Assembly: GCA_027051265.1 (NCBI GenBank) | Contig: JALTZH010000055.1 | Location: 1 to 5,025, forward strand | Reading direction: 5' to 3' | DNA length: 5,025 nt | From: an archaeon | GTDB lineage: Archaea > Hydrothermarchaeota > Hydrothermarchaeia > JALTZZ01 > JALUTC01 | Shown: in pieces, positions 1 to 5,025 of the stretch | How the letters are laid out: each line of letters opens with the position of its first letter | Position numbering within the stretch: the first letter of the stretch is position 1 | Program-made: the position numbers and the translations under genes | The notes under the pieces: model-generated | Seen by the model: the letters and a program-made list of their open reading frames with translations, nothing else | Database searches by the model: none | Told to the model about the DNA's origin: nothing

Positions 1-2250
1 ATTTTTTCTTTCGTATTCCTTTTTAAGATCGTATTCCAATCTTTTTCTTTCAATTTCTATTCTAAATTTTAGGTATTCTTTAAGTATATCTTTTATGTTC
101 AATATTTTTGGTCTACCGTTTACTAAAACCAAATTTATAACGTTAAAACTCGTTTCAAGTGACGTCTTTTCGTATAAGATATTTAACAACGCTTTTGCAT
201 CGGTGTTTTTTCTTAAATATATACATATTCTTATCCCTTCTCTATCAGATTCATCTCTAATAGATAATACGCCATCTATTACCTTATTTTTAACCAGTTC
301 TGCAATTTCTTGAACAAGTTTTGATTTGTTAACTTGATATGGAATTTCTTTGATAATTATTAGTCTATCCTTCAATATAACTTTACCCCTAATCTTTATT
401 ATTCCTCTACCTTTTTTGTATGTTTCATGTAATTTTTTAACATCAACTATTACACCACCTGTTGGAAAATCTGGGCCCTTGATGATTTTAAGTATTTCAT
501 CAATTTTAGCATCAGGATTTTCAAGCATATAAATCAACGCTTCACACACTTCTTTTATATTATGTGGAGGGATATTTGTTGAAAATCCAACAGCGATACC
601 TGTTGAACCGTTTATTAATAGATTTGGAATCTTACTTGGCAGTACTTCTGGCTCTTTTAAGGTACCATCAAAATTCGGAACGAAGTTTACTGTTTCTTTA
701 TTTAAATAATCCAACATCTCTTCTGAAATTTTTGATAATCTTGCTTCAGTATTATGGTTGATAACACCATTAGCAATAAAAGAATGACAACAACTTTTGA
801 CACGGATAGAATAAACTCTCTTCATTCCTGTTATCTTCTTTTCAACTACCTTTACAAAGAGATATTTATTTCTAAGAAGTAAATCCAAGAATTTTTTATC
901 TTCATCATCTAAGATTTTGTAAAGTAAATCCTTATGTTTTTCAACATTATAGTAGTTTAAGTCTTTATTAAATAATCCATTTAAATTATATTTCTTAACA
1001 AGATATTTTGCTAAGAAAGGTATTTTTTCATAGTTGTTCGTTTGATTTTTAAAATCCTTCAGATCAATACCGATTCTTTCTATAAGTATTTTTAAACTAA
1101 GAGTTTCCTCTATAGATAAACGATTATCCTCCAGTTTACTTACAATACCATGATTTAACAACATTATTTGAAGTTGTTTGAGAAACTTTTCATTTTCGTG
1201 ATAATGAAAGATAAAACGATTCTTGTCAATGTTAGAATTAAGATTGAAAAGAGTTTTTAAAAACGATATTTGAATAGATTCGGAAGACCTTAGTATTGTA
1301 TATGGAATTTCTCTATCTCTATGATCAATTATTAATCCTTTATTCTCCAAATCTTTTAAAATTTCGGCATCATTTATTTTATAAACAACATCCTTATCTT
1401 TTTCATATCTTTTAAATCTTGAACCATAAATTTTCACAAATATCTCTTCAAATGTTTTTGAAAAGTTTTTATCCAACGTGATATAAAAACCATCTGCCGA
1501 TAATCTTCCCTTACAACATAATATACCTAATAGTATTGCTTCCTCATTATTTATTAAATCTTTTTTTGGGAAATATTTCGAGAATCTCTCAACTACAATG
1601 TAATCTCCAATATTGATATCAGATAATGTTTTCCATTTAAATATAGGTTTTCCATTTCTATCAACACTTAAGCATAATACCGGATGATTGAGACTACCTT
1701 CAAGTTCTAAACCTATTTCGGTCTTTATTTTTATCGTTTTATGTATACCGGAGTTAAAAAACTTATCCGCAACATTTTCCTTCTTATCAAAAGATAAAAT
1801 CTTTATGTAAATGGGCTTTTCCTCATTGTCATTCGATTCAATTATCTCTTCAATCTTAATTAAACCTTTATCTGTTAATACCAAACAATCTCCTGTAACA
1901 CAATATCTCATCGCCGCTGGTGGATCACCATCAATGCTACCGAAGTTTCCATGTCCTTCAATTAATGGATATCGCATATTAAAATCCTGCGCCATTCTAA
2001 CTAGAGCTTCATATACTGGCTGATCTCCATGAGGATGATATCTTGCTATACAATTACCAACAATTGTTGCAGATTTTTTATAAGGTTTATTGTATTTCAA
2101 ACCCAACTCGTACATTGTGTATAAGATTCTTCTTTGAACAGGTTTTAGACCATCTCTTACATCTGGTATTGCTCTACTTATTATGACAGACATTGCATAG
2201 TTTATATAGTCTTTTTTTAATTCATCTTCAAATGTTACTGTTTTAATCAT
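1..2250 (-). CDS. gyrA: DNA gyrase subunit A, N-terminal part, interrupted by an intein (3' end outside the window)
   Basis: This is the cleavage-religation subunit of the A2B2 type IIA topoisomerase that introduces negative supercoils using ATP. The minus-strand frame runs 750 codons without a stop and leaves the window, so the C-terminal part is missing. N-extein residues 1-116 carry the family signature: [20 protein letters not shown] (18-37), QRR (39-41), YHPHGD (71-76), GNFGSIDGD (101-109) and AAMRY with the catalytic tyrosine Y116. The intein fills residues 117-500. The C-extein resumes at T501 with TEARL, then [26 protein letters not shown] and GPDFPTGG, all typical of GyrA. The visible extein (366 residues) reaches about residue 375 of E. 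coli GyrA. The ATG at 2250 is chosen because conserved sequence begins within about 15 residues of it; no clear Shine-Dalgarno site precedes it. ParC or an archaeal GyrA-like protein is possible, since the GyrA-box lies outside, but the intein insertion allele favours GyrA. Confidence 0.95.
751..1902 (-). other. GyrA intein, 384 residues, in-frame at the catalytic Tyr/Thr junction
   Basis: This protein-splicing element is translated within GyrA (residues 117-500) and should excise itself, ligating Y116 to T501. The first residue is Cys (C117), opening block A with [13 protein letters not shown]. Block B is GSLNHPVL with the conserved His at 189 (intein residue 73); Ser stands where many inteins have Thr. 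Block F is [17 protein letters not shown]. Block G ends in VINHN, giving penultimate His499 and terminal Asn500, followed by the +1 nucleophile Thr501. All four splicing blocks are present, so it is probably active. Between B and F lies a degenerate LAGLIDADG endonuclease. From memory, the splicing blocks align well with the M. xenopi GyrA mini-intein, including the NHP-LCL stretch of block B, a W-K-x-x-x-x-I-x-x-GDY stretch and the VYS(I/L)RV of block F. Removing residues 117-500 restores a perfect AAMRY-TEARL gyrase join. Confidence 0.95.
1135..1542 (-). other. Degenerate LAGLIDADG homing endonuclease domain inside the intein
   Basis: Residues 237-372 of the precursor match the layout of a DOD-type intein endonuclease. 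The first LAGLIDADG helix (block C) is LLGILCCKG at 240-248, a block D-like stretch around REIPYTIL ends near 319, the second helix (block E) is [10 protein letters not shown] at 330-339, and block H is [15 protein letters not shown] ending at 372. In active enzymes each helix ends in an acidic residue that binds the catalytic metal. Here the first position is Lys (K247) and the second is Asn (N338), and the Gly after the second is Ser. The fold therefore appears kept while the nuclease centre is lost. Residues after block H (about 373-460), including an IERIGID segment, resemble the tail of such endonuclease regions before the splicing fold resumes near residue 462. Loss of cutting is inferred from the missing residues. 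Confidence 0.85.
1903..1905 (-). other. Codon of the GyrA catalytic tyrosine (Y116), last N-extein residue
   Basis: This TAT codon encodes the tyrosine of AAMRY, which in type IIA topoisomerases forms the covalent 5'-phosphotyrosine link to cleaved DNA (Tyr122 in E. coli GyrA). It is immediately followed by the intein Cys1 codon (TGT, 1900-1902). The intein thus attaches directly to the active-site residue, and the unspliced precursor should not form a working cleavage centre. Confidence 0.93.
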
Positions 2251-4677: not shown

Positions 4678-5025
4678 ATGATAAATGAGATTGAAAAATT
4701 GTTAAAAATCATCATTATAAAGCTTGAAAAAAATCTTAAAGAGATTAAATTAGAAGAATTGGAAGACGATCTAAGTAAACTTAAAAACCTATTGGAAAGA
4801 TATTATGCTGAAAATTTTATGGAGTTGTTGAAACACGGTATAATCTCAAAAAAATTTGGAGAAATAAATTCTATATTAAATAACATATATAAAATAATTG
4901 AATATATGAAATCATCTAATAATAAATCTATGGATTTATTACATAAAATAATATATAAATTAAAATTAATGGATTTTAAAATAAAAGAGTTAAAAAGATT
5001 CCAGTCAATGTTAAACGTTATATAA
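4678..5025 (+). CDS. Hypothetical helical protein, 115 residues, directly downstream of polB
   Basis: I do not recognise this protein. It is rich in Lys, Ile, Leu, Asn and Glu, has no Cys or Trp, no signal peptide, and no clear membrane segment; the run of four Ile at 12-15 is flanked by lysines. Heptad-like Leu/Ile spacing through residues 2-42 and 83-113 suggests two or three long amphipathic helices, perhaps a helical bundle or coiled coil. Its ATG follows the polB TGA with no gap, so co-transcription and translational coupling are likely; GGA about 10 bases upstream of the start is only a weak ribosome site. The 3' half is extremely A/T-rich (13 G or C among the 120 bases 4861-4980). Its position suggests a role with the polymerase, but nothing in the sequence shows one. 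A divergent GINS-like helical domain was considered but lacks support. Confidence 0.65.
   Translation: MINEIEKLLKIIIIKLEKNLKEIKLEELEDDLSKLKNLLERYYAENFMELLKHGIISKKFGEINSILNNIYKIIEYMKSSNNKSMDLLHKIIYKLKLMDFKIKELKRFQSMLNVI

Follow-up and report, generated by a model that had tools for sequence, protein, structure and literature searches.

A class 1 intein with a decayed LAGLIDADG domain at the GyrA active site of an archaeon, predicted to splice but no longer to home

Described GyrA inteins and the insert in the window

The closest system with a solved structure is the Mxe GyrA mini-intein of Mycobacterium xenopi (1am2, 4oz6). The intein identified here in the window (the whole stretch of 5,025 nucleotides that was analyzed) resembles it in its GyrA host, its class 1 residues, Ser at F:4, and Thr+1, and both splicing halves can be aligned between the two. 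Unlike the window copy, the Mxe intein has a bacterial host and its endonuclease is wholly gone, leaving a 199-residue chain, whereas the window copy keeps a decayed LAGLIDADG domain. Archaeal GyrA inteins, including those of genomes G028 and G509, G271 and G185, G241, and others, share with the window the junction AAMRY^C ... HN^TE and are homologous over the full length, but most of them keep the SEG and EGDG motif endings and measure 420-440 aa, while the window intein and that of G021 are shorter and have lost these motifs. The same junction is used by the GyrA inteins of staphylococcal jumbo phages (Machias and its kin) and of the IMG/VR contig L088, although these are only ~25-33% identical and sit in a viral host gene.

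The window is the entire contig C55 of an assembly of 1.46 Mb in 257 contigs (95% complete), and the following features were annotated on it:

751..1902, minus strand: intein, GyrA active-site allele, 384 aa, class 1 (Cys1, HisG:6, AsnG:7, Thr+1)
1864..1902, minus strand: block A with the N-terminal nucleophile Cys1 (TIGR01445)
1675..1698, minus strand: block B, GSLNHPVL, with catalytic His73 (B:10)
1003..1548 (approximate bounds, intein residues 119-300), minus strand: degenerate LAGLIDADG homing endonuclease domain, from PF14528, motifs, and regional identity
1507..1536, minus strand: first LAGLIDADG motif, catalytic acid replaced by Lys131
1231..1263, minus strand: second LAGLIDADG motif, catalytic Asp replaced by Asn222
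766..816, minus strand: block F
751..765, minus strand: block G, VINHN, followed by Thr+1
1903..2250, minus strand: GyrA N-extein, residues 1-116, the last being catalytic Tyr116
1..750, minus strand: GyrA C-extein, Thr501 onward, running off the contig end
2299..4677, plus strand: archaeal family B DNA polymerase, 792 aa, intein-free neighbor

The intein lies in-frame between GyrA Tyr116 and Thr501, starting with Cys1 (CVTGDCLV) and ending with His383-Asn384 before Thr+1, and its excision leaves AAMRY-TEARL. All class 1 residues, whose roles in splicing are laid out in PMC4031507, were found (Cys1, His73, His373, His383, Asn384, and Thr+1), with His373 carried by block F, in which F:4 is Ser as in Mxe. 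Block B has Ser at B:7, where many inteins have Thr, and Ser is also present in several relatives. An earlier note, made from the letters of this DNA, had described a 384-residue in-frame insert with blocks A, B, F, and G between Y116 and T501, the removal of which restores AAMRY-TEARL; its coordinates and blocks were confirmed, the joints held in translation, and its residue numbering is correct. The LAGLIDADG domain in the middle of the intein and the truncation of gyrA by the contig end had both been missed.

Profile searches matched Pfam Intein_splicing (PF14890) to intein residues 8-384 (5e-14, 52.8 bits against a cut-off of 35.8) and TIGR01445 (intein_Nterm) to residues 1-76 (9e-12). NF038098, the NCBIfam model of GyrA proteins that contain an intein, covered flanks and intein in a single continuous alignment over residues 2-748, with a score of 617 bits against the curated cut-off of 1850, in a gyrA truncated by the contig end and with an intein shorter than the model length. 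Among solved structures, the Mxe GyrA intein 1am2 is the closest (E 4.5e-22), and this match, together with the continuous NF038098 alignment, bears out the earlier placement of the intein at the mycobacterial GyrA site. Both exteins were matched by PF00521, the DNA topoisomerase IV/gyrase A domain, as consecutive pieces of one copy (model positions 1-93 and 92-337). An open frame of 384 codons has a chance of ~7e-18 at the base composition of the intein, and the other two forward frames contain 92 stops across it; the site pattern GD-x-[SPTA]-AAMRY-C occurred once, and in 0 of 200 shuffles. The predicted structure of the intein (mean pLDDT 45, from a two-row alignment) was discarded as too poor.

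Occurrence and kinship of inteins at the GyrA site

With the window intein as query against 394 archaeal genomes, we identified five more inteins at the identical junction, in G021 (same order), G028, G271, G185, and G241. A junction DNA pattern, validated on known cases and run in the phyla of G028 and G241, matched 5 of 392 and 16 of 371 genomes, respectively, and each of these 21 loci shows, flanked by AAMRY and TE, a complete intein that is 420-440 residues long. Altogether, 24 archaeal genomes besides that of the window carry an intein at the exact junction, giving a total of 25 in four phyla (that of the window and three others). Viral genes are occupied at the same junction in gyrA of Staphylococcus phage Machias, where the insert is annotated as an intein, and in gyrA of viral contig L088 (IMG/VR). 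On the latter contig, a free-standing LAGLIDADG-like ORF (L088:9189-10091, minus strand) immediately precedes the gyrA that carries the intein and has a gyrB-like ORF beside it.

A survey of archaeal gyrase from 2022 had separated out 23 archaeal GyrA sequences that contain inteins, the insertion site of which is not given in the passages of that paper drawn on here (PMC9348778). The window intein is a further case of an intein type already recorded in archaea. The earlier note had proposed a notable host extension, which by its own terms would lose its novelty if described archaeal inteins at the site were numerous; with 24 other genomes in four phyla sharing the exact junction, and the 23 sequences of the survey (site not given in those passages) beside them, that proposal is not supported. 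Rarity of the archaeal GyrA-site intein was refuted by the site survey.

A tree was computed without the two long viral rows, with two archaeal ribonucleotide reductase (RNR) inteins, a single outgroup type, as the outgroup and with Mxe as the only bacterial GyrA intein. All GyrA-site inteins, including Mxe, fell on one side against the RNR inteins (100/99), and the window intein is sister to that of G021 (99/97). As judged from these sequences, inteins at the GyrA site are of common descent and not convergent insertions. One clade mixes different phyla, with G271 and G185 grouped together with G400 and members of the G241 phylum, a mixture that suggests transfers of the GyrA intein between archaeal phyla. 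Mxe joined G491 and G520 at 95/92, and that group joined the window, G021, G028, and G509 at 94/91. Because the placement of Mxe uses ~160 residues of the splicing domain and drew an unusual-composition warning for the Mxe, G491, and G520 rows, we treat it as a lead and not as a result. The archaeal inteins nearest to Mxe, those of G491 and G520 (L092 and L093), have FIHHN as block G and Asn at the usual block F His, and their endonuclease acids were lost separately from the window lineage.

Endonuclease decay and inheritance of the intein

The LAGLIDADG_3 family (PF14528) scored 18.7 bits on the window intein, below threshold. In most archaeal copies the two motifs have the form LLGALVSEG and FLKALFEGDG; the first motif of the window intein reads LLGILCCKG, and its motifs end in CCKG and NLNS in place of the SEG and EGDG that most relatives have. 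The corresponding motifs of G021 are ALGALCFGG and FIKAIIEGYA. An acidic residue ending both LAGLIDADG motifs was taken as the mark of an active endonuclease, and in the window intein both catalytic acids are replaced. The intein measures 384 aa in the window and 366 aa in G021, versus 420-440 aa in other archaea.

Comparison of the window with G021 gave identities of 63% in the N-terminal and 65% in the C-terminal splicing part and 63% in the GyrA extein, versus 31% in the endonuclease. No such gap between splicing and endonuclease parts was found in three pairs with largely intact endonucleases, where the two parts are 72 and 77% identical in G028/G509, 60 and 63% in G185/G271 (one acid lost in G271), and 63 and 59% in G241/G936. 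We infer that the window endonuclease is probably inactive, although a LAGLIDADG enzyme could in principle use unusual acidic residues. Splicing through the class 1 route is predicted from the constraint seen on the splicing blocks.

In the proposed mechanism, Cys1 would attack the Tyr116-Cys1 peptide bond after translation, the N-extein would be transferred to Thr+1, Asn384 would cyclize with the help of His383, and the exteins would join to restore AAMRY-TEARL. In the unspliced gyrase, separation of the catalytic Tyr from the residues after it would leave the enzyme inactive, with no usable active site. With its catalytic acids lost, the LAGLIDADG domain would be decaying and homing would have stopped. 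Such a late stage of the homing cycle, with the endonuclease decayed and splicing kept, is known for inteins in general.

In the simplest reading, the intein was inserted once, long ago, and has been passed on from the common ancestor of the order; its splicing part would have stayed as constrained as the host protein, and the endonuclease would have been released from constraint. Vertical inheritance within the order, shared with G021, is the most likely history, as far as the two sequences compared indicate and with loss or non-fixation assumed in G022. The latter genome, of the same genus, has the empty site AAMRYTECRL in a GyrA that shares 82% identity with the window's. A precise loss in G022 is likely because the intein seems to have entered gyrA before the genus arose; incomplete fixation in that lineage may also account for the empty site. 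Our main reading, to which we give a probability of about 0.92, is that the window would hold an inherited, splicing-competent, and homing-dead class 1 intein at the known GyrA active-site point in an archaeal host.

Host gene, host identity, and alternative readings

The gyrA gene starts at 2250 on the minus strand and is cut at base 1 by the contig end, with its remainder most likely on contig C94 of the same assembly. The host phylum is small and is represented here by genome assemblies only. PF00521 was found in 23 of 23 genomes of this phylum and GyrB in 21, including the window's assembly, where it is on C155. In the window's genus (G000:C94 = L048:2-766; G022 gyrA = L082:12621-14546), the C-terminal beta-propeller of GyrA is short and degraded: it shows no more than one weak PF03989 repeat, whereas G006 has six and G021 four, and the GyrA box (QRRGGRG) is absent from the GyrA of both G000:C94 and G022. 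The gyrase of this genus may be unable to introduce negative supercoils. On the other side of gyrA in the window, the neighboring polymerase, described as archaeal in the earlier note, is indeed of family B and nearest to Thermococcales PolB. A Lys/Ile-rich ORF of 115 aa (4678-5025, plus strand) begins right after the polB stop codon and matched no family above cut-off. The gyrA of G022 has another neighbor, which probably encodes an aminoacyl-tRNA synthetase, and in G021 a TnpB/IS605-type transposon nuclease-like gene (L050:3547-4797) stops ~20 bases short of the open frame that contains gyrA and its intein.

The archaeal host named in the earlier note was upheld because ribosomal protein L19e, an archaeal RNase P RNA, and PolB are present, with 16S rRNA and PriL (PF04104) not found in the window's MAG. 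L19e was identified in the window's assembly and in 20 of 22 other genomes of the phylum, and among control genomes only in the four archaea. The RNase P RNA (178.6 bits) lies at L048:845-1129 on C94, the probable continuation contig, just downstream of the 3' part of gyrA; a spurious 103-aa ORF overlaps it on the opposite strand. The GyrA extein shares 82% identity with its counterpart in G022 and no more than 63% with any other genome in the comparison, which assigns the contig to the genus of G022. A plasmid search gave no match, and the sole hit of a contig scan was a fragment of an ordinary bacterial gyrA (Desulfurobacteriaceae, L004). A misbinned or chimeric contig with a gyrA that is not archaeal would fit a MAG in 257 contigs, a window that alone is a 5 kb contig, the missing 16S rRNA, and the different gyrA neighbor in G022, but it is very improbable in the face of the extein identities just given, the Thermococcales-like PolB, the archaeal RNase P RNA on C94, and a GC content that is equal in the gyrA extein and polB. 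It is just as hard to credit that the GyrA-allele intein is essentially mycobacterial and that the window records a rare jump into an archaeon, a notable extension of its hosts: the mycobacterial inteins are the best studied, the nearest solved relative is Mxe GyrA, and one review table gives gyrase inteins as eubacterial only (PMC5874633), but another 24 archaeal genomes, spread over four phyla, carry the intein, the survey of 2022 had already set archaeal cases aside, and the Mxe intein itself groups among archaeal ones in the tree.

The absence of the intein from G022, as expected of a sporadic mobile element, would also suit an intein that is still homing, gained recently and independently in the window lineage, with an endonuclease that works through non-canonical residues. 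This is unlikely, although less remote than the two foregoing readings, as both catalytic acids are replaced, the domain is shorter (384 versus 420-440 aa in other archaea except G021), LAGLIDADG_3 stays under its cut-off, and the divergence of the splicing domain equals that of the host. An inherited intein that splices and no longer homes remains our preferred reading, and a wider proposal can be attached to it. Mycobacteria may have received the intein from archaea, because the Mxe copy nests among archaeal ones; that the GyrA allele is primarily archaeal, with mycobacteria as recipients by transfer and the window as a late, homing-dead stage persisting by inheritance, is a tentative and rather unlikely extension. 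If true, it would mean that a homing-dead intein persists by inheritance where only its exact removal is survivable.

The active-site GyrA intein is not mainly mycobacterial, as the same allele recurs in several archaeal phyla and in phages. Together, the window and G021 would represent a clean natural example of a stage in the homing cycle, in which splicing stays constrained at the rate of the host and the endonuclease no longer is, beside a genus-mate of the window with an empty site.
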